NCBI GenBank assembly: GCA_029268515.1
Contig: JAQWNP010000006.1
Location: 558,001-622,000 of the forward strand
Direction of reading: 5' to 3'
Source of the DNA: Phycisphaerales bacterium
GTDB taxonomy: Bacteria > Planctomycetota > Phycisphaerae > Phycisphaerales > SM1A02
Length of the DNA: 64,000 nt
Each line of letters opens with the position of its first letter. The first letter of the stretch is position 1. Made by a program: the position numbers and the translations under genes. A model generated the notes under the pieces. It made no database searches and was not told the DNA's origin. It worked only from the letters and a program-made list of their open reading frames with translations. Shown in pieces: positions 14,549-25,764 of the stretch.

Positions 14549-15816
14549 AGGGTTCTGCTCGTCCAGGCCTATTAGCCGTTATTGGCCCAGGCCTTGTGAT
14601 TGCTGCAACTGGGGTCGGGGCGGGTGATCTGGCCACTGCAGGCTTTGCTGGCGCAGCCATTGGACTTTCAGTTCTCTGGGCTGTCTGCTTAGGCGCTGCA
14701 ATGAAATTTGTTCTCACTGAGGGACTGGCGCGATGGCAACTGGCCACAGGGCGCACGCTACTAGAGGGGGCCGTTGATCACTTTGGACGTTGGGCGTCGG
14801 TGATTTTCTTAATCTACTTAATTCCATTTACGTACTTTGTTGGTGCCGCATTAATAAGTGCTTGTGGTGTGACAACAAGCGCTATGCTGCCAGTCTTTGG
14901 TGATCCAGTTGTTGGCCGATTCATCTTTGGAGCCGCATTTAGTATTCTCGGCCTTCTGTTTGTTTGGTATGGCCAATACGCGATCTTTGAACGGATTATG
15001 GCAATCTGTGTCGCAGTGATGTTTTTGATTGTGGTTGTGACTGCGGTACTCATCGCTGATGACTGGGGAGGGATTGCGAAAGGCCTCTTGGTTCCAACGG
15101 TTTCGCTTCCTAAAGACGAGTTAACGACAGCCCAGTTTGGTTGGGTTATCGCGCTCATTGGCGGCGTAGGCGGTACAGTCACACTCTTGTGTTATGGCTA
15201 TTGGATCCGCGAGGCGGGGCGCGATAGCCCAAGTCAAATCCGGTTATGTCGTATTGATCTCGCAGTTGGCTATACAGTTACGGCATTATTTGGCATAGCA
15301 ATTGTCATTATTTCAAATGGCATGAACGTTGACGGCAAAGGCGCCAACCTCATTTTAAGTATGGCGAATCAACTGGAAGCAAAAGTTGGCTCGATTGGCC
15401 GGTGGGCATTCTTGATTGGTGCCTGGGCAGCGGTGTTTAGTAGTTTGTTGGGCGTGTGGCAGGCCATACCTTTTCTTTTTAGTGATGCTGTGCGTCGCTT
15501 GAAATTAGGCAGAGAAGATGCCCAGGGCACGGTTGATACACGAGCACCGCTCTATCGCGGCTTTCTCATCGCATTAGCATTGGTTCCTCTTGTTCAGGTC
15601 GCACAGCCCTTTGCCCAAGTACAAAAGGCATATGCACTCTTTGGTGCATTCTTCTTGCCATTGCTTGCCATCGTGCTCTTGCTACTCAATACCCGTCGTC
15701 GTTGGATAGGTGACCATTTGGTTAATGGTTTTCTGGCAACGGCATCATTGCTTGTGACGCTTTTGTTTTTCTTATTAGCGGCAGCGATTAAACTAGGTTT
15801 GTTTACAGCGAATTAG
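14545..15816 (+). CDS. NRAMP-family-like transporter lacking the DPGN motif
   Basis: A 423-residue membrane protein with about eleven hydrophobic segments. The opening GPGLVIAATGVGAGDL aligns with the first helix of NRAMP divalent-metal transporters, but the metal-binding Asp-Pro-Gly-Asn is replaced by Gly-Val-Gly-Ala-Gly-Asp. This marks it as one of the divergent NRAMP-related proteins whose substrate may not be Mn or Fe. The sixth-helix Met-Pro-His-like metal motif is also not evident. GTG start in a GTGA overlap with the upstream gene. Its stop overlaps the convergent S41 gene by four bases. Confidence 0.8.
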   Translation: MKGSARPGLLAVIGPGLVIAATGVGAGDLATAGFAGAAIGLSVLWAVCLGAAMKFVLTEGLARWQLATGRTLLEGAVDHFGRWASVIFLIYLIPFTYFVGAALISACGVTTSAMLPVFGDPVVGRFIFGAAFSILGLLFVWYGQYAIFERIMAICVAVMFLIVVVTAVLIADDWGGIAKGLLVPTVSLPKDELTTAQFGWVIALIGGVGGTVTLLCYGYWIREAGRDSPSQIRLCRIDLAVGYTVTALFGIAIVIISNGMNVDGKGANLILSMANQLEAKVGSIGRWAFLIGAWAAVFSSLLGVWQAIPFLFSDAVRRLKLGREDAQGTVDTRAPLYRGFLIALALVPLVQVAQPFAQVQKAYALFGAFFLPLLAIVLLLLNTRRRWIGDHLVNGFLATASLLVTLLFFLLAAAIKLGLFTAN

Positions 15817-17786
15817 GGCTGTGTCGGTCGATATTTCGGTCGGGGCACGGGCCATCTTTCGGCCTTCTTAATGAGCTCAACAGCTGTTTCTAACTGCCGG
15901 TCACTCTGACCTATAAAGTCGCTAGGCTCCGGTATCACAATGACATCTGGCTCAACACCATTGCCATCGTAGAGCTGACCCCGTTTTCGAAATGATGCCA
16001 TCGACGACATACGTGGGGATAAACCACTGTGAGCTAATTTGATGCGCTGGGCACGACCAGAGCCACCACCAGAGGTGGTTCCAACGAGCAACACGTTTTC
16101 TCGGTCTTTCATGGCTCCCAGAAAAATATCGGTTGCACTGAAGCTGCCCCCATCCAGGAGTACCACAATTGGTTTGTCGTATTCATATGCCCATGCAGCT
16201 CGTCCACCAGCACCGAGTACAAAGTAGTGCCAGGGGCTGAATTGTCCTGGTGGCAACTTCATTTCGGGGTCAAAGCCGGGGACGGCATGGCTGATCGAAG
16301 CACGCTCGGGGCCACTCAATAGAGGGTCATCAGCTCGATACATACTTCGTGCTGCAAGGTGGTTCTTTGGAAACGCTTCATTAAGGCGGTAGGCCCCGAT
16401 ATTGATGACCTGAGGTGGCTCGCGATCACCTTTGATGAATTCATGAAACGTTTTTAGTGCTTGACGAGATCCGCCGCCATTGCCTCGAACATCAACAATG
16501 AGACCATCTGTCCCCTTTGATTCAGCCATGAGGCCAATGATTTCTTGTACTTGCTTCTCATCCATGCGCTCTAATCGTAAGTAGGCAATGTTGTCATCAC
16601 GGATTGTTGTCTCAAGCTCGTCAAGCCGATTTCCCTTCAGAGGAGAAGAGCTCATCAAAACGGGTTGTTCGATTGTCGAGTTCCCGTCGAGGGAACCTAA
16701 AAGAAGAACAACAACATCACTCCCCCAATCTTCGCTCTCTGGGCTATCACCTTCTTCATAATCTAGTAATCGCCTCATTGCTCCAACCTCAGCGGCCACC
16801 TGAAGAGCACGTCGGTTGACAAGTGGATCAGATCCCGCTGATTGAAGCCAACGTGCCACCTCCATCCAATCATCAATCAGAAAGCCATCGATTCCAAGAA
16901 GGACTGGATACTCAGGATCAACAAAGCCATCACGATCTTTATTGACAGCGAGAAATTGATCACCATCAGTTTCAATAAAAAAAGGTAATGAGCCCGTAGG
17001 AAACACACGGTTGACACCCGAGACGCGGGTATGCCCATCACCGAAAATACCAAGCATCATTTGTAGCTGAAAGCCAAAGTCATCAACCCGAATACCATCA
17101 CCTAAAGAGGCTCTAATGGCATCCAGAGCGGCTCGATAGTCAACATCAGTTCTATGGAGATAGGCGTATTGTTCTTCTAATGCTTGCTCAAGTTGGTCAA
17201 GATCCTCCGCAGCCTCTTCGGCGGTGAGCCATTGCGTTTGACGAGCGTCGGGAGAGGCAACTCTCTTTGTCAAGAAAGACAAATGTTCAGGAATCTCTGT
17301 CGCATGTTGTCGTGATGAGCGCGCCACATCACGCTGTTTTACAGCCTCCTCAGCGTCCTTTTTTTCCTTATTCGATTCCCATATCCGCTGCCGATTCGCA
17401 GCCGTCATGGGGACATCATTGAATTCCATTTCTGGGCCACCCTGAACACTGCGTACCAGTATTGTCACGGTGTTGCCAGGTAGCGGATGACCAGATTCTG
17501 CCATCAACTGCACCAAATCTTCGCCAAATCGCTTTTGCGCTCTGTCACCGTATTGCTTTCGCGCAAAATCATGGAGGTCTTTAATCGGGATACCTTCAAT
17601 CGCTAGCAAATCAAACCAATTCCCACCCAACATAATTTCGGGGCCATCATCATTAAATCGAATGGCTTCGAATGGGCTGAGCTTGGGATAGTGATCATCA
17701 TCACCCCAAGTGACTGAGGGCAGTAAGAACACGACCCAAAGACAGAGCATGTTGAGACACAAAAAAGAGGTGCTACTTCGTTTCAT
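15813..17786 (-). CDS. secreted S41-family (C-terminal processing) peptidase
   Basis: A 657-residue protein with an N-terminal signal peptide (cleavage near VTWG). The S41 core lies in the second half: the FGDGHTRV segment, DVRGNGGG oxyanion strand, catalytic serine in GGSFSAT (with a downstream Lys candidate in GAMKD), and a C-terminal NGVEPDV motif. The N-terminal third is charged, predicted helical and not assigned. It probably cleaves unfolded or tagged periplasmic proteins. The start overlaps the stop of the cytosine deaminase gene, so it is the last gene of a minus-strand run from the POTRA lipoprotein. Confidence 0.9.
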   Translation of the reverse strand: MKRSSTSFLCLNMLCLWVVFLLPSVTWGDDDHYPKLSPFEAIRFNDDGPEIMLGGNWFDLLAIEGIPIKDLHDFARKQYGDRAQKRFGEDLVQLMAESGHPLPGNTVTILVRSVQGGPEMEFNDVPMTAANRQRIWESNKEKKDAEEAVKQRDVARSSRQHATEIPEHLSFLTKRVASPDARQTQWLTAEEAAEDLDQLEQALEEQYAYLHRTDVDYRAALDAIRASLGDGIRVDDFGFQLQMMLGIFGDGHTRVSGVNRVFPTGSLPFFIETDGDQFLAVNKDRDGFVDPEYPVLLGIDGFLIDDWMEVARWLQSAGSDPLVNRRALQVAAEVGAMRRLLDYEEGDSPESEDWGSDVVVLLLGSLDGNSTIEQPVLMSSSPLKGNRLDELETTIRDDNIAYLRLERMDEKQVQEIIGLMAESKGTDGLIVDVRGNGGGSRQALKTFHEFIKGDREPPQVINIGAYRLNEAFPKNHLAARSMYRADDPLLSGPERASISHAVPGFDPEMKLPPGQFSPWHYFVLGAGGRAAWAYEYDKPIVVLLDGGSFSATDIFLGAMKDRENVLLVGTTSGGGSGRAQRIKLAHSGLSPRMSSMASFRKRGQLYDGNGVEPDVIVIPEPSDFIGQSDRQLETAVELIKKAERWPVPRPKYRPTQP

Positions 17787-18262
17787 TCACCAAGATCCTC
17801 ATTCCAGAGATCGGGTTTCTCACGTCGCAACGTGGCCATAAGTTCGATACAGCGAGAGTCATCAAGCACAATTGTCTCTACGCCCGCGTTCTTTAGCCAA
17901 GTGGTAGAAGTCTCTAACATCGACATCCAGGTCTGCGCGTGGCTGAAGGTCGATGTCTCGCCAACAACAATGCGTGGAATTCGCAGAAACACACCAAGAC
18001 CAGTACACATGGTGCAAGGCCACAAGGTTGTGACCAATGTCAGGTCTTCCCAATCACGTCTTCGACCGGCATTGCGAATGCATACAACCTCACCATGAGC
18101 GGTGGGATCGCCACTTTGCACGCGCAAATTGTGTCCACGGGCGACAATAGTTCCAGATTGATCAACGAGCACCGCACCAATTGGTATGCCGCCCTCTGAC
18201 CAAGACTTCTCCGCCTGCTCAATGGCGCTATCCAGCCATTTAATGTAATTCGCTTGGCTCAC
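17783..18262 (-). CDS. cytosine deaminase, fungal (Fcy1-like) type
   Basis: A 159-residue zinc-dependent deaminase. Zinc ligands and the catalytic Glu are in TAHGE (His56, Glu58) and PCTMC (Cys83, Cys86). The overall match is to the small yeast-type cytosine deaminase rather than bacterial CodA or TadA: EGGIPIGAVLVD, RGHNLR, CTGLGVF, RIPRIVVGE and the C-terminal W-x-EDLGE all correspond. It would convert cytosine to uracil, and with UPRT (25828) would feed UMP. Both ends overlap neighbours by four bases (POTRA lipoprotein upstream, S41 peptidase downstream), an odd operon for a cytosolic salvage enzyme. A related nucleoside or guanine deaminase is less likely. Confidence 0.88.
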   Translation of the reverse strand: MSQANYIKWLDSAIEQAEKSWSEGGIPIGAVLVDQSGTIVARGHNLRVQSGDPTAHGEVVCIRNAGRRRDWEDLTLVTTLWPCTMCTGLGVFLRIPRIVVGETSTFSHAQTWMSMLETSTTWLKNAGVETIVLDDSRCIELMATLRREKPDLWNEDLGE

Positions 18263-19299
18263 GGTTCATCTGAAGCTGTTGCAGCCATTTCTTGTGGCTC
18301 GGTCACGCGGTAAACAAGCATCCATTCATCTTCAAGCATGTCTTGATCGATACCAACGTCGGTTCCATCGAGGCCTCGCTCTTGGTAAAGCAAGATAATC
18401 CGCTGTCGTCCCTCTTCAATCGCAGCATCATCACGAATATCGCCAGGTTGCGCTGCTAATAGCTGCGTCAACTCTCGATCAGTAATCGTGGTGTTACCAA
18501 CAATGACGATTTGTTTGATCACAGGTGTCTCAGTCACCTGATAAACAAGATCGATAGAACCATCTGGGCGCGTTGAAGTTGACCAATCGACATCGGCATA
18601 AACACCAAGCATTGTCAATGCAGCAATATCACGGTCGACAAGATCCTGATCAAATGGCTGTCCTGCTTTCGCCTTAATGACGTACTGCGCAGGTTCAGCT
18701 CGACTGGCGGTCGCACCAGTAATCTTGACTGAGGCAAAGTGTGGAGGCTTTGGGGCAGCCGTTTTTCCAGTTGCCAGTTCATCTTCCGGAAGCTCCAAGC
18801 CCTCTTCGATGCGCTGGTATCGAAGTGCAGCTGGATAGCTGGGGGTTGGCTGTGGCGTGGGAATCCGCCAGCGGCGAGCATTGATGACCGCATAATCATT
18901 CATCAAGCCTCGATCAAAGAAGATGGTTGCTAAGGCATACTGTCCCTGGCCACTCGGGTAAATCACATCGACTTCGCCCTGAAAACCACGCGATCGAACC
19001 TCTTTGATATGTAATGCTGACTCGCTTGAATCGATCATGGGTCGGCCTCGACCCAACCGTTCAATGATGTCGTCATAGATGGATGCTGGTGTGCCCTCGG
19101 GGAGGTTGATAATTAACTCTTCATTGACACCATAGCTCTCATCGGCGTATCGCAATGATTCAACAACAAGAGTTGACATTGGTTCATGCCCAATATCGTG
19201 TCTGGAACTGATGTGTTCAACACCGGGGTATGTGTTGTATGGGGCGCACGATGCAAGAAGCCCAAAGATGGCAATGGTTAAAAAACGGCGGTCGATCAT
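18259..19299 (-). CDS. lipoprotein with two POTRA domains and no beta-barrel
   Basis: A 346-residue protein with a lipoprotein signal (LLASC, Cys18). The C-terminal half contains two consecutive POTRA-like units: about 190-262 (GQPFDQDLVDRDI, then LGVYADVDW) and 263-335 (IKQIVIVGNTTITDRELTQ, then GRQRIILLYQERGL). POTRA domains normally sit before the BamA/TamA/FhaC barrel and bind outer-membrane-protein substrates; here the protein ends after them. The N-terminal half is unassigned. It lies downstream of the TolC/HlyD pair and overlaps the deaminase start. It may help assemble an envelope complex, but that is inference. Confidence 0.82.
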   Translation of the reverse strand: MIDRRFLTIAIFGLLASCAPYNTYPGVEHISSRHDIGHEPMSTLVVESLRYADESYGVNEELIINLPEGTPASIYDDIIERLGRGRPMIDSSESALHIKEVRSRGFQGEVDVIYPSGQGQYALATIFFDRGLMNDYAVINARRWRIPTPQPTPSYPAALRYQRIEEGLELPEDELATGKTAAPKPPHFASVKITGATASRAEPAQYVIKAKAGQPFDQDLVDRDIAALTMLGVYADVDWSTSTRPDGSIDLVYQVTETPVIKQIVIVGNTTITDRELTQLLAAQPGDIRDDAAIEEGRQRIILLYQERGLDGTDVGIDQDMLEDEWMLVYRVTEPQEMAATASDEP

Positions 19300-19384
19300 A
19301 ATGAATCCTCCTTGGCCTCAATCACTGGCGTGCGTACGAAGGAATACTACCACGGAACAAGTTTTGATCGAATGGGCCGCGTGG

Positions 19385-20905
19385 TCAAGAACGATCTTCG
19401 ATCCGTACGGCGATCTCTGATGGGGCGGGCTTCCGAAGCAGGACCACGCCACCTGGCTCGAGGCCATCCAGTATTTCAGCGTAAAGGTCTGAGACTTGGC
19501 CAAGCTTGATCGCTCGCTGATGGAAGCCGTCTGGTTCCAGCACATACGTGTAAATCACCGCCCCACTTCTGTGAATGGCGGGTATGGGTATGTAAAGCAC
19601 ATCTTCTACTGCAGCAACAACGATCTCAGCTTTGCATCTCATTGAGGGCTTAAGGCCAAGGCCTTCCGCCTTATGCAGTTTCACTTTTACGGTGTAGTCG
19701 CGGCGGTTGGGATCACGCCAGCCACCACCCTCTGCAAGTACGCCAACCTGAAGTACCTCGCCATGGACAACCTGATCTGGCAAGGCATCGGAAGACACCA
19801 TGACTGGCTGTCCTGATTCGATCATGCCACTGAGGGCCTCATTGACTTTGACCTCAGCAATCATCTGTGAGGTGTCAGGCAGGACAATGACGGGTTGGTT
19901 GCGATTTAACTCAGTGCCAACCGAAGGCGGATTGTCTCGGTCACGCCAGCCCATTGATTCAAGACTACTGGCATAAACCACCAACCCACTTGCAGGGGCT
20001 GTTACCGTGCAACGGCTTAGTTGGTCTTGCAATTTTTCTAATCGTTCGTTTGTGGAGCTGACTTGCTGGGTAGCAAGTTCAACATCACTCATTTTGGCGC
20101 GAACAGACGCGTCGAGCCTCATTTGAGCGCGGCCAGACTCAGCTGTTGCTTGGGTGACATCCGAGCTCAATTTCTTGAGCTCCTGCTCCCGCGTGTATTC
20201 CAGATAGATAGTCCGATTAAGTCTTGCTGTCTTGAGCGCTACTTGTGCGTTGAGATACGCAATCTCATCCTTGAGAAGCTCTTCATTATTGATGAAGTCC
20301 TTCTCTTTTAGGGTTTGTGAGTGTTCAAATCGCTGAGCTAACCGGTCATGGTCTTTCTCTGCCGTCTGGATACCCATTTCCAATTCTTGTTTCTTGGAAA
20401 TATCGTGTCCCTCGAGCCATGCTTCGAGCGCTATCTCAGTGAGGTCAATCGTAACTTGCCGCTCTGCGACTTCTGAAGCCTGTGTTTGCTTTTGTATTTC
20501 CCAAGCAGCCTTTGCAGCATCCAACGCATTGTCGGCGCGCGAAACTTCTTCCTCTAGCTTCTTGATGTTATCTCTTACGGCTCCATCATCGAAGCGAAGC
20601 AACACTTGCCCCTCCTGGACGATTGTGCCTTCATCAACAATCTCTGAGATGACGGCGCGACCTTCAAGTGTGTTATAAATCTCGATCTGTTTCATTGCGG
20701 CGAGTTCGCCAGAGCATGGAACAGTAATCTCAAATCCACCACGATCAACAGTAAACAATTCAGCGGTGGACGCTTCAGCAACATCACTTCCACCAAGGCT
20801 CACGCCAAGAATGACAGCCAAGCCAAGGCCCACAGCAGCGACGCCACCCAACATGAGTGGTGCAATTTGTCCAAGGCGACGAGGTTGTGATCGTGTCGTA
20901 TTCAT
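19385..20905 (-). CDS. HlyD/RND-type periplasmic adaptor protein
   Basis: About 506 residues. One N-terminal transmembrane helix (near LMLGGVAAVGLGLAVI) is followed by a lipoyl-like half (FDDGAVRDN), a long coiled-coil hairpin rich in E, K, L and Q, the second lipoyl half (CTVTAPASGLVVYAS) and a beta-barrel/membrane-proximal region. Adaptors bridge an inner-membrane pump and a TolC channel. The frame also allows an ATG at 20962; 20905 is preferred because the membrane helix then follows a short basic N-terminus. It is 170 bases downstream of the TolC-like gene. No ABC, RND or MFS pump gene is in the window. Confidence 0.9.
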   Translation of the reverse strand: MNTTRSQPRRLGQIAPLMLGGVAAVGLGLAVILGVSLGGSDVAEASTAELFTVDRGGFEITVPCSGELAAMKQIEIYNTLEGRAVISEIVDEGTIVQEGQVLLRFDDGAVRDNIKKLEEEVSRADNALDAAKAAWEIQKQTQASEVAERQVTIDLTEIALEAWLEGHDISKKQELEMGIQTAEKDHDRLAQRFEHSQTLKEKDFINNEELLKDEIAYLNAQVALKTARLNRTIYLEYTREQELKKLSSDVTQATAESGRAQMRLDASVRAKMSDVELATQQVSSTNERLEKLQDQLSRCTVTAPASGLVVYASSLESMGWRDRDNPPSVGTELNRNQPVIVLPDTSQMIAEVKVNEALSGMIESGQPVMVSSDALPDQVVHGEVLQVGVLAEGGGWRDPNRRDYTVKVKLHKAEGLGLKPSMRCKAEIVVAAVEDVLYIPIPAIHRSGAVIYTYVLEPDGFHQRAIKLGQVSDLYAEILDGLEPGGVVLLRKPAPSEIAVRIEDRS

Positions 20906-20964
20906 AGATCCGTTATGAGCTCCACGAAGGGCGGAGCACTTTTTATATTCATTTTGGTTCACTA

Positions 20965-21006
20965 GAGAGTCCTATGGTATGTCGCCAAAGAGACTCTATC
21001 CATAGG
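20965..21006. promoter_or_regulatory. inverted repeats between tolC-like and adaptor genes
   Basis: CCTATGG (20971-20977) and CCATAGG (21000-21006) form a perfect 7-base inverted repeat. AGAGTC (20966-20971) and GACTCT (20992-20997) form a competing helix sharing one base. On the minus strand this lies after the TolC-like stop and before the adaptor start, so it could be an RNA processing or attenuation structure. No U-run follows. Confidence 0.35.
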
Positions 21007-21074
21007 CAACTGATGACAAGTAGATATTGGACCTCTGAGGAGACAAAGGGCTTAATAAACCCAACCAAAATACT

Positions 21075-22931
21075 TTATGGGCCCATTTTACGCGGGTTCT
21101 TGGTTCGGGGGCTGGTCTCTGGGACAACAATCATACCCTCTAGGGGGTCGATCGAACCATCTGTCTTGACCCGCAGTTGCCCAGAATCTCGAAGGTATTG
21201 CAAGATTGAGACCTCGAGATCTCGTCTTGCTGAGTCACGACCATCACGGGCTCTGCGCAGGTCTTCAATTGCTTTGAGAAGATCCAGGATCGTAATGCGT
21301 TCAGGCTGAGCTTCAAGAGATTGAACACCAATCTCGGCGATGACAACATTTTGCTCCTGCAGATCAAGATTGAATCGAGCTACATCAATATCGCGCACAC
21401 GGTTTCGCGTCTCAATCGCGATGGTATCTCTGAACTGTGAGTACTTCAGGCGGCCTCTTTCAAGACTGACCTGATTTCGTCGCAAACGCAGCCTCTCTAT
21501 TTTTCTGTTTAGGGGCACTCCATATGAAATTCCAACTTGGAATTCAGGCTCACTAAACTGGTCTTCAAGTGCCTCAGAAGTCAGCTCACCTTGTGAGTTA
21601 AAGGATGCCAGGCCGGTCAGGTTCAGATCTCCAAGAATCTGATTCCTTGCGTTTTCGACATCACGGACAAGATCAGCAAGCTTGTTGCGTTCGGTTTGTA
21701 AATCGAGCCTTAAAGCCATTGCAGATGTGACTGCAGAAGTCATATCGGAGTTCGGCGGTGTCAGGCCAATAACCGAGGTGATGATGACCAGTGGCTCCTC
21801 AACGGGGTAGTTTATCTTTACCTTAAACTTATCGATGGCGAGCTGCAGCGCCTCTCGATTCCGGTTGTATGTATCGATCGATTGAAGCACCGCATTTTCT
21901 GCGAGCGTGACATCATAAAGTCTCTTGCGGCCAGCTTCGTACAAAGCTCGTTCTTGAGTTGCGACTCGTTCAAGTTGTGCGATTGCCCTTTGCCGGTTCG
22001 TCAAGAGTTGTTGTTGCACGACAAGATCAAGGTAATCACTGGAAATGGTTACCAGAAACGCTCTGCGGAATGTTTCAAAGGCACGTGCAGCGTAGACCAC
22101 GTTTCGCTGTTGCTGTATGAGTTCACGCTGTGCGTACAGACCGGCGCCACGAAGTAGTGGTATCTCTGCTCTGAGATAAAGCTCGGGCGTTGCATAATTA
22201 CTATCGTTGACTCTCTTATGCAGATCTTCACTCGCCTCAGCAAGAACTTCGGCTGCAATTGATCCTCCATACGGAAGAAGTTGTGAGACTCTGAACTCAT
22301 TGACGAGATTCAGTGAGGTGTCGTAGAAGCCGCCATCACTGTTGCTGTTTAATGTAGATCGAAGCGTGTCAAAGAACTGTGGATCCCAACGATGCATCTC
22401 TATCAAAAGATCAAGGCATGCGATGAGATAATCTTCTTGGCTGTACGCGTATTCTCGACTGTTGCGGGTGGCGTACTGAAGTGCTGCTTGGAGATCAAAG
22501 CGAGCAGCGTCGGGTGGAATGGCGTAGACCGCCTGCAACCTGTCTGAAACGGCCTGCGCATCAGCGGCAGCGGTTGGCACGTAAATCAGTTCGTTGGCGC
22601 TCGGGTTGTTTGTATCTGGTGTTCGATCGTAGATGTCCTGCGCTTCTAGCCAACTAGATTCATTGGGTGGCGGGACGGTGATGACGGGCTTGGCATTCGG
22701 TGGGGTCATCTGTGCAGAGTGCTCAGCCACCAGTTGATCAACTTGTTGGTCAATTTGTGCCAAAGGCGCTTGGCATCCAAATGGTATGAGTCCGAATAAA
22801 AGGATGCCCAATGTGCCGAAAGTAATGCCTCTGGCACTGGTTATGGCGCGTTGGGGCAGATTCAGCTGGTTCGTATTGCCTAGCTGGATCAAATCAAGGT
22901 TGGGTAATTGCAAACTCATGAGGCTCACCAT
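21075..22931 (-). CDS. TolC-family outer membrane lipoprotein
   Basis: A 618-residue protein whose signal peptide ends in a lipobox-like IPFGC near residue 53. The body shows the TolC/OEP pattern: long amphipathic helices with conserved small loops (LRAEIPLLRGAG, EAGRKRLYDVTLAENAVLQS, GISYGVPLNRKIERLRLRRNQ). It probably forms a trimeric channel through the outer membrane. The N-terminus is unusually long before the lipobox; ATGs at 22931 and 22919 are both possible, and GGTGAG lies just before the second. It is the first gene of the minus-strand run ending at 15813 and is divergent from the GH35-like gene. Confidence 0.9.
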   Translation of the reverse strand: MVSLMSLQLPNLDLIQLGNTNQLNLPQRAITSARGITFGTLGILLFGLIPFGCQAPLAQIDQQVDQLVAEHSAQMTPPNAKPVITVPPPNESSWLEAQDIYDRTPDTNNPSANELIYVPTAAADAQAVSDRLQAVYAIPPDAARFDLQAALQYATRNSREYAYSQEDYLIACLDLLIEMHRWDPQFFDTLRSTLNSNSDGGFYDTSLNLVNEFRVSQLLPYGGSIAAEVLAEASEDLHKRVNDSNYATPELYLRAEIPLLRGAGLYAQRELIQQQRNVVYAARAFETFRRAFLVTISSDYLDLVVQQQLLTNRQRAIAQLERVATQERALYEAGRKRLYDVTLAENAVLQSIDTYNRNREALQLAIDKFKVKINYPVEEPLVIITSVIGLTPPNSDMTSAVTSAMALRLDLQTERNKLADLVRDVENARNQILGDLNLTGLASFNSQGELTSEALEDQFSEPEFQVGISYGVPLNRKIERLRLRRNQVSLERGRLKYSQFRDTIAIETRNRVRDIDVARFNLDLQEQNVVIAEIGVQSLEAQPERITILDLLKAIEDLRRARDGRDSARRDLEVSILQYLRDSGQLRVKTDGSIDPLEGMIVVPETSPRTKNPRKMGP

Positions 22932-22995
22932 CGTATAAAGAGGGCCTCAGCGTGTGAAACCCGGGCCCCCTGATGGCCCAAATAAGGGATGTTTT

Positions 22996-25764
22996 ATGGC
23001 CGTTTTTAGTACAAGTGGGCAAAGTTTCTCGGTTGATGGACGCAGATTGTGGTTGGTGGGGGCTCAACTGGACTACGCTCGCATACCAGCCAGTGCGTGG
23101 GCAGAGCGGTTGCACATCATCAAAGAGGCGGGGTTTAACACGATTCAGACCGCCAGCCCTTGGCTGTTACACGAGCCGAGAAAAGGTAAATTTAACTTCA
23201 AGGACTCAGCGGATGTTGGGCACTTCTGTTCGCTGGCAGCAGAATGTGGGCTCAACGTCTTGTTGCAAGTGGGACCATCTGTTGGCCGCAGTTTTGACGG
23301 CGGTGGTTTGCCTTATTGGCTCACGCTTGAAGACGATGTTCTGTTGCGCAGTGGCACCGGCCTTTTTATGCAACACGCCACGAAATATCTCAGCCGCTTA
23401 ATCTCACAGATTTTAGATCTGCAGATGACGAAAGGTGGCCCCATTGTTGCCATGCAAATTGAAAATGCGTGGGAATGTTCGAATGAGGAAGAGTCGACTC
23501 GGTACATAGGTGAGCTTTCTCGGTTCTTACGTGAAAGTGGTATCACGATTCCCTTTACCAATGCCAACGATCTGTGGGCGCCCGATCATGGGTCGGTGCA
23601 CACTTGGCGAAGCCAAGGGCAACAACTTAGTGACTTGCGACAACTTCGTATGTTGCAACCAGAGGCGCCAAGACTCGTAAGCTCGTTGCCTTTGGCTAAC
23701 ACTGCACTCTTGACTGAATCAACAGAAGTAAAATCTGGTGGTTTAGAGATGCAGCGGCAGATTGCGGAAGTCCTTGCTGCTGGAGGCCAGTTTGTCCTTG
23801 ACAATGTTAATGGTGGGACTAATTTTGGCTTTCTCGCAGGAAGGCTTGCAGGCGGCGAAGATCGATTTGTTGCAACCGCAGCGGTAGATGGGCCGTTGGT
23901 TGGTGAAGCGGGTATCCCAACCGAAGGGTTGTCTATCATTCGGCGAATCACGACGTTCTCATCGAGTTTCGGGCATGTGTTCAGTCATCTTGATCCCAAC
24001 TTTCAGCCAGTGGTTAGCACTGTCCGAGTAAAACCAAATCAGTATTCAAAGAAGAACGGGAGCGTGTCCTCGGTTGTTACGCAAACCGGTGGCAGCGGTT
24101 CAGTTGTGTTTGCATTCGCCGATGGCCTCAAAGCAAAGAGTCAACTCCTTTTACCTGATGGCATTGAGATACCAATTGATTTAGGTGATCAACTCGTTGG
24201 TTGGTATCTACTTGACGTTGATCTGTGTGGAGCGGGTCGATTAGATTATGGAAACGTCTGTCCATTGACGGTCGTTGATCGAAAGGTCGCCGTGTTTTTT
24301 GGTGCGGCTGGATCTGCTGCACACCTGTCTATTAACGGCCGACCACTACAGGCGGTTGTACCCAAAGGCAAAGAACCATTGGTTATCGATCACGAAGGTG
24401 TCACGGTCGTCTTGTGCAATCAGAAACAAGTCGATGCCTGTTTGACTCATGGGGAAAAACTGTATTACGGCGCCTCATGGACCAGCCTTGATGGAACGCC
24501 TTACTTAGCAGATGAGTGCAAAGAAGTAAGGGTGTTGTCTAGCCAAGAGTCAACCGTGCTACCAGGGCAACGTCAAAACAAAAGAGCTTCTCGATCAATT
24601 AAAGCAAAGAACTGGCTGGCTTGTTCACAAGACGAATTAGTCAGCGGAACATCCCCACGATTCGCATCTCTTGACGGGCCAAGCTCTCTGATGTCATGTG
24701 GTTCCCCTGAGGGTTATGGCTGGTATCGCATTGAGCTACGTAGTAAGACGGACCAAAAGAAAAAGTGCTTGCTTCCTCTAGGAGGCGATCGGCTTGCCTG
24801 GTACCTGGATGGATCGTTTCATCACATCAGCGGTGTTGGTCCTGGCGCTCTTGAGGGCCAATTTGATCTGAAACTCTCTGCGGGCAAGCACACACTGGTT
24901 GTGTTGGCGGACAATCTAGGCCGACTCGATAGCGGGAGTGATTTGCATGAGGTCAAGGGTGTTGGCAGTGAGCTCTATGAAGTTAAGAATTTGGCTGGTG
25001 TGAAACACCGCACAATAGAGGCGGATCCTATAAGTCCATTCGCGATGCAGCCAAATGTTTTTGGGCTTGGTGGCGGGGAACAAAGTCAGCCCACGCAGTT
25101 CACTTGGACAATTGATCATGCCAAGAAATCGCCGTTGATTTTGGATATTAGAGACTGCTCCATTGCGGGTTGTTTCTTACTGAACGATGAGCCACTGATC
25201 TACTATTCAGGTGAGCGAGGCATCAAAAATAAGCGGGTTGTCATATCGCTAGAGCGCACAGATATTATGAAGCGTGGCAAAAATACACTTCGCTTTGCAC
25301 CAAATCCCGGTCAAGAACATCCAGAGCAGATTGTTAAGGCATTACGTATTCTTGAGTGTGTTAACACAATAAGTAATGTGAGTTGGGGATTCGCAAGGTG
25401 GGAGAAGCCCTCTACTAAATCTTTCGATGAGGTGAGCACAAAGGAAGCGAAAGAAAAGAAAGGCACACCTTGTTGGTGGCGCACTGAATTTGATGGAGCT
25501 TCGATCTCTCGATCTTCGCAGCCACTTTGGTGCGATGTCAGCAGTATGAGTAAAGGCCAACTTTACTTTAATGGGAATAATGTGGGGCGATACTTCAATG
25601 CAACGGCAGACGGGGACAACACCAAAGGCCAAGGCCTCTTAAGCATTCCTGAATCGTGGGTGCTTCCAGAAGCGCCAAATGAAATCGTCCTGTTTGATGA
25701 GCATGGCTTCTCGCCGTTCGATGTCAATATGGTGAGGCGCGATTTAGGCAGTCGAGATACCTGA
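22996..25764 (+). CDS. GH35 beta-galactosidase-like protein, probably catalytically inactive
   Basis: About 922 residues. The N-terminal 330 follow the GH35 barrel: WLVGAQLDYARIP, the KEAGFNTIQT and PWLLHEP block, GGGLPYWL, GGPIVAMQIEN and NGGTNFGF. However, the acid/base motif ENE-Y-G reads ENAWE, so the catalytic Glu is Ala158. The E in the usual CAEW region is Arg, and no S/T-E-[FY]-Y-x-GW nucleophile motif is visible at the expected distance from GGTNF. The C-terminal part resembles jelly-roll beta-domains of GH35 enzymes. AAGGGA precedes the ATG at 22996; the longer frame from 22954 has none. No signal peptide is evident. A carbohydrate-binding or regulatory role is possible. Confidence 0.82.
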   Translation: MAVFSTSGQSFSVDGRRLWLVGAQLDYARIPASAWAERLHIIKEAGFNTIQTASPWLLHEPRKGKFNFKDSADVGHFCSLAAECGLNVLLQVGPSVGRSFDGGGLPYWLTLEDDVLLRSGTGLFMQHATKYLSRLISQILDLQMTKGGPIVAMQIENAWECSNEEESTRYIGELSRFLRESGITIPFTNANDLWAPDHGSVHTWRSQGQQLSDLRQLRMLQPEAPRLVSSLPLANTALLTESTEVKSGGLEMQRQIAEVLAAGGQFVLDNVNGGTNFGFLAGRLAGGEDRFVATAAVDGPLVGEAGIPTEGLSIIRRITTFSSSFGHVFSHLDPNFQPVVSTVRVKPNQYSKKNGSVSSVVTQTGGSGSVVFAFADGLKAKSQLLLPDGIEIPIDLGDQLVGWYLLDVDLCGAGRLDYGNVCPLTVVDRKVAVFFGAAGSAAHLSINGRPLQAVVPKGKEPLVIDHEGVTVVLCNQKQVDACLTHGEKLYYGASWTSLDGTPYLADECKEVRVLSSQESTVLPGQRQNKRASRSIKAKNWLACSQDELVSGTSPRFASLDGPSSLMSCGSPEGYGWYRIELRSKTDQKKKCLLPLGGDRLAWYLDGSFHHISGVGPGALEGQFDLKLSAGKHTLVVLADNLGRLDSGSDLHEVKGVGSELYEVKNLAGVKHRTIEADPISPFAMQPNVFGLGGGEQSQPTQFTWTIDHAKKSPLILDIRDCSIAGCFLLNDEPLIYYSGERGIKNKRVVISLERTDIMKRGKNTLRFAPNPGQEHPEQIVKALRILECVNTISNVSWGFARWEKPSTKSFDEVSTKEAKEKKGTPCWWRTEFDGASISRSSQPLWCDVSSMSKGQLYFNGNNVGRYFNATADGDNTKGQGLLSIPESWVLPEAPNEIVLFDEHGFSPFDVNMVRRDLGSRDT

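Follow-up and report, generated by a model that had tools for sequence, protein, structure and literature searches.

Channel and adaptor genes of Phycisphaerae very probably belong to a MacAB-TolC-like exporter with its pump encoded at two other loci

In tripartite exporters the pump and the adaptor are usually encoded in one operon, with the TolC-type outer membrane channel (OMF) possibly encoded elsewhere, and the extreme is AcrAD-TolC, all components of which lie at different loci (PMC8277102). The systems closest to the one described here are MacAB-TolC, the type VII ABC exporter composed of a MacB-type permease with a periplasmic core domain, an ATPase, a HlyD-type adaptor and a TolC-type OMF (PMC5985334, PMC8277102), and DevBCA-HgdD of Anabaena, in which adaptor, permease and ATPase are separate polypeptides encoded in one operon and the TolC homologue is encoded elsewhere (PMC8277102). 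In a member of the Phycisphaerae (Planctomycetota) this usual arrangement is reversed, the OMF gene lying with the adaptor gene and both halves of the pump lying away from them. No account of a split exporter in Phycisphaerae was found in the open-access literature searched.

The window, i.e. the whole stretch of 64,000 nucleotides analysed (G000:C6:558001-622000), holds five open reading frames on the minus strand within 15813-22931. The gene names given to them in the original prediction agree with the Pfam, NCBIfam and PDB matches: a putatively lipidated OMF (21075..22931), a HlyD/MacA-type periplasmic adaptor (MFP, 19385..20962), a lipoprotein with two POTRA domains (18259..19299), a cytosine deaminase (17783..18262) and, as the final gene of the run, an S41-type peptidase (15813..17786). 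The lipoprotein and deaminase genes overlap by 4 bases, as do the deaminase and S41 genes, and gaps of 112 and 85 bases separate OMF from adaptor and adaptor from lipoprotein, respectively. In the one congener available for comparison, G001 (CALCOW010000150, MAG of an uncultured member of the Phycisphaerae), the five genes stand in the identical order at 72-84% identity. No pump gene adjoins the five-gene set, as had been claimed. A GH35-type glycosidase gene assigned by Pfam (22954..25764, plus strand) is divergently oriented to the OMF gene, as it also is in many relatives as far out as family f6; the two genes possibly share a promoter region.

The OMF scored 58.9 bits against Pfam OEP (cut-off 22) and carries, downstream of an N-terminal hydrophobic segment, a cysteine common to the relatives whose N terminus is intact. 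The sharing of this cysteine makes lipidation of the OMF likely; the local motif is IPFGC, with no canonical lipobox. The adaptor (525 aa) scored 30.8 bits against HlyD_D23 (cut-off 30) and 23.2 bits against HlyD_3 (cut-off 22.2), and its RND_mfp score of 76.8 bits lies below the cut-off of 94.9. These Pfam matches identify a TolC-type OMF and a HlyD/MacA-type adaptor. An adaptor search of 61 genomes (the window's own genome and 60 of the order), together with the neighbours of 20 loci, revealed that the OMF and adaptor genes are mostly adjacent, and no pump gene was listed near the pair among the neighbours of the 20 loci. At L062:7258-12871 (G025), one OMF gene is followed by three tandem adaptor paralogues.

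A Pfam search of the window's genome returned five MacB_PCD matches, one of which is a MacB-type permease of 443 residues (G000:C6:289272-290600) encoded on the same contig as the five genes, about 0.29 Mb away from them; reading of this locus found no ATPase, adaptor or OMF gene beside it. The permease scored 106.8 bits against MacB_PCD and 73.6 bits against FtsX, both above cut-off, and its hydrophobic stretches (residues ~19-46, 296-328, 357-391 and 397-432) correspond to four TM helices, the first two of which enclose the periplasmic core domain typical of MacB. It matched MacB structures in the PDB search (5gko, E 7e-40) and falls short of MacB itself, with 138.5 bits against NCBIfam NF007826, whose curated score is 966 bits. 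In the permease tree the paralogues are set apart with full SH-aLRT support, and the split permeases of families f1 and f2 form one clade; those of the class as a whole are less tidy, the lone permease of G127 grouping with an operon-type one and having an ATPase beside it. The split permease is flanked by a HAMP histidine kinase gene (L101:8950-10572, about G000:C6 290949-292571) and a gene for a small conserved protein with the motif SWADYNLWS (L101:8641-8940), and both flank it in most family genomes examined.

The MacB-type ATPase is encoded on another contig than the window (G000:C3:106138-106869) by a lone gene directly before ruvC, a position that it also occupies in the congener and other relatives. 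When the ATPase of the operon in the outgroup genome G041 was used as query, the C3 ATPase was the best match (C3:106105-106818) with 54% identity, and the next ATPases of the window's genome reached 42-45%. Its Walker A (GPSGSGKS) and signature (LSGGQ) motifs are intact, and its best NCBIfam match is MacB (8.5e-74), with 249 bits against the 966 bits curated for fused MacB (NF007826). The ATPase tree separates a split-type clade (support 96/94) from an operon-type clade (95/73) and from a clade of paralogues (100/99), which these genomes encode in a further MacB operon that is intact. The orphan gene (G000:C3:106138-106872, L176:8139-9403) shares a 4-base overlap with ruvC, so that translation of an exporter subunit is probably coupled to that of a recombination gene. 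With a MacB-like permease and an ATPase closest to that of MacB, the parts fit a tripartite exporter of type VII.

Comparison of the neighbourhoods in related genomes revealed conserved ABC genes in the order OMF-adaptor-ATPase-permease in outgroup families (G041, G052, G044, G056, G103, G114, G135 and G048), with overlapping genes in several or most of them. In family f5 and part of f6, the 61-genome search placed permease orthologues immediately next to that of the adaptor; the exception is G060, where adaptor and permease alone are together and the ATPase is elsewhere. Pump and adaptor thus share one operon in the outgroup families, whereas they do not in the window's genome and nearly all of its family. 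Among 101 genomes of the class, a permease lies within 4 kb of 42 of the 79 adaptor genes, and four genomes contain the operon and the split set together. The OMF gene is apart from the adaptor gene in seven members of the order (three of them fragmented assemblies), and in the single-contig genome G046 of genus g37 all four genes are far apart, so the association of the parts is independent of gene order. We infer that the four-gene operon is the ancestral state; it would have been broken up early in the class, its parts being kept together functionally since.

Retention and loss of the four genes go together. Within the window's family, 25 of the 29 genomes that are at least 90% complete possess all four, and the remaining four (G006, G016, G023 and G026, 91-97% complete) are without OMF, adaptor, permease and ATPase alike, an ATPase search in them finding nothing but the paralogue from the other MacB operon. 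The Fisher p value of this co-loss is 4e-5 in a test that ignores kinship, and three independent losses of the exporter are needed on the BamA tree, a single-gene stand-in for the species tree. In the class-wide set of 101 genomes, 34 combine a lone adaptor with a lone permease, and 5 have just one of the two. Partial sets occur in less complete genomes, namely permease and ATPase without OMF and adaptor in G009 (88% complete), permease only in G015 (72%) and a set without the ATPase in G025 (80%), and are attributed to assembly incompleteness. The outgroup operon, the co-retention and co-loss, and the class-wide lone pairs point to a dispersed MacAB-TolC-like exporter and not to a new envelope machine. 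Judged from sequence, it is very probable that the OMF and the adaptor belong to a MacAB-TolC-like (type VII ABC) tripartite exporter with its motor encoded at two other loci. The original prediction had offered two readings of the five genes, a new system for envelope assembly or export, or use of a pump encoded elsewhere. The latter stands for the OMF-adaptor pair, which co-occurs with a dedicated pump whose permease and ATPase have been identified, whose orthologues form an operon with the pair in outgroups and which is lost along with it; the former is not supported, OMF and adaptor alone being components of a conserved system. By analogy with MacAB-TolC (PMC5985334), the parts would assemble such that an ATPase dimer moves the periplasmic core domains of the permease within the adaptor ring, and this movement would push substrate from the periplasm or the outer leaflet into the lipidated OMF; the path would begin in the periplasm or at the surface of the inner membrane and lead by way of the adaptor ring to the OMF.

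Strictly joint loss with a single permease and a single ATPase would be unexpected if the OMF-adaptor pair were a TolC-like general conduit for several pumps (RND or ABC) with no dedicated pump. An OMF must be shared somewhere, since three RND loci (L108, L109 and L110) have an adjacent adaptor and no OMF recognised by Pfam; every RND pump, however, has its own adjacent adaptor-like gene and therefore does not need the adaptor of the window, on which ground an RND partner for the pair was set aside. We consider such a general conduit quite unlikely. The adaptor or the OMF could nevertheless serve further pumps besides the split one; another ABC pair (G000:C1, L103) also lacks an adjacent adaptor. 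Break-up of the operon in the window's family might be taken to mean that the pair is a decayed, non-functional relic, but between the congeners pN is 0.07-0.12 vs a pS of 0.68-0.78 for OMF, adaptor, permease and ATPase, which are under strong purifying selection, and all four are kept over the whole order. The relic reading is almost certainly wrong, and the dispersed exporter remains our interpretation of the OMF-adaptor pair.

The POTRA lipoprotein consists of an N-terminal domain (N-domain, residues ~1-165), a linker (~161-186) and two POTRA domains (~187-335). It has the lipobox LLASC, and C18, P25, P67, D111 and W144 of its N-domain are invariant in an alignment of 26 sequences. Its two POTRA matches (58.4 bits, Pfam cut-off 21.3) are of the N-terminal Omp85/BamA type and correspond to BamA POTRA 1-2 (TIGR03303 positions 5-144). 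The reading frame stops about 12 residues past POTRA 2, overlapping the next gene, and the lipoprotein therefore has no barrel, the C-terminal 16-stranded beta-barrel being absent from the reading frame. The N-domain, which has no Pfam match and no credible PDB match by profile, represents a family of lipoproteins spread over most of the order. In relatives it is a stand-alone protein of ~170-240 residues, the gene of which often adjoins epimerase, UbiX-type flavoprotein and deaminase genes; in several genomes the family is coupled with the epimerase gene. One subclade of the window's family (G019, G005, G008 and G036) has it closely behind the adaptor gene, indicating that this neighbourhood is older than the genus. 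Fusion of the N-domain to POTRA domains was found only in G000 and G001, i.e. in one genus, among the 61 genomes. Between these congeners the N half and the POTRA half are conserved and the linker is not; both halves are under purifying selection, and the fusion is therefore a working protein. In the tree, the POTRA pair falls outside the genome's own BamA copies, in a deep position without firm placement, and an AlphaFold2 model of the lipoprotein from two sequences (pLDDT 34) was discarded. The window's genome has two BamA genes (G000:C2:51131-51574, L250; G000:C1:287137, L251), the C2 copy grouping with G035 and the C1 copy with the congener; contamination of the MAG (4.18%) or a transfer may account for contig C2.

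On these data the POTRA lipoprotein appears as a one-genus fusion, in which a lipoprotein would have gained two BamA-type POTRA domains, and not as a conserved part of the exporter. That a standing lipoprotein captured the first two POTRAs of a BamA and became a dedicated outer-membrane-anchored assembly or docking factor for the lipidated OMF or another neighbour is a speculative proposal with a small chance of being right; if it were true, a barrel-less POTRA lipoprotein would be an accessory of a tripartite exporter. No barrel-less POTRA lipoprotein was found described in the open-access literature searched, and MafA of Neisseria, which acts in secretion as a lipoprotein with no barrel, was rejected as a parallel, being without POTRA domains (PMC7738311). 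The POTRA lipoprotein offers a simple test of POTRA function without a barrel of its own.

The five genes could instead form a new envelope machine with the POTRA lipoprotein as a working part, for example by serving in docking or folding, so that the lipidated OMF is passed on to BAM, or by taking the place of a pump. The genes are closely spaced and form the same run in both members of the genus, OMFs require BAM for insertion, and the POTRA half is constrained like the N half (dN/dS about 0.05 where synonymous change is unsaturated). However, the POTRA part is present in two of the 61 genomes and OMF-adaptor in nearly all, the N-domain elsewhere pairs with the epimerase, flavoprotein and deaminase genes, and it is retained in G006, G016 and G026, three of the four genomes without the exporter, and is therefore no dedicated part of it. 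We accordingly hold a new five-gene machine to be very unlikely, and judging by gene distribution the lipoprotein would be irrelevant to the exporter. The fourth gene encodes a predicted yeast-type cytosine deaminase (top PDB matches to the yeast enzyme Fcy1, 1uaq, E 2e-31) with the zinc motifs HxE and PCxxC present as HGE and PCTMC, a downstream rider of the operon; the last scored 88.4 bits against Peptidase_S41 and has the same position in G001. We regard the lipoprotein, deaminase and S41 genes as neighbours of the exporter genes, likely in one transcription unit with them, and not exporter parts.

The dispersed MacAB-TolC-like exporter illustrates that an 'adaptor without a pump' is not necessarily a new machine, and that a tripartite ABC exporter can last throughout a bacterial class with its channel-adaptor pair, its permease and its ATPase each encoded apart. 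Phylogenetic co-loss recovers such dispersed partners and is usable for orphan adaptors and MacB-type permeases in Planctomycetota.

The exporter is of a known kind, and its novelty lies in gene organisation. It shares with MacAB-TolC the MacB-type permease with periplasmic core, the ATPase, the HlyD-type adaptor and the TolC-type OMF; unlike in MacAB-TolC, ATPase and permease are separate proteins from separate loci, the adaptor is long and linked to the OMF instead of the pump, and the OMF is apparently lipidated. Separate adaptor, permease and ATPase polypeptides plus a TolC homologue are also the composition of DevBCA-HgdD, whose operon leaves the OMF elsewhere, whereas here it is the two halves of the pump that are encoded apart, the OMF being with the adaptor. 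AcrAD-TolC is alike in having its components at separate loci, as in genus g37, but is an RND and not an ABC system, and AcrD borrows a shared adaptor whereas the parts here look dedicated to each other. With the Omp85 family (BamA, TamA, TamL; PMC12045153) the lipoprotein shares two BamA-type POTRAs and, with TamL, a lipid anchor, but it is without beta-barrel and its N-domain matches no Omp85 protein. Finally, the adjacency of a MacB/FtsX-type permease gene to one for a histidine kinase, shown by most of the family members examined, recalls BceAB-BceS (PMC5985334), although BceB is a ten-helix protein with neither adaptor nor OMF, and the kinase link here is one of neighbourhood only.
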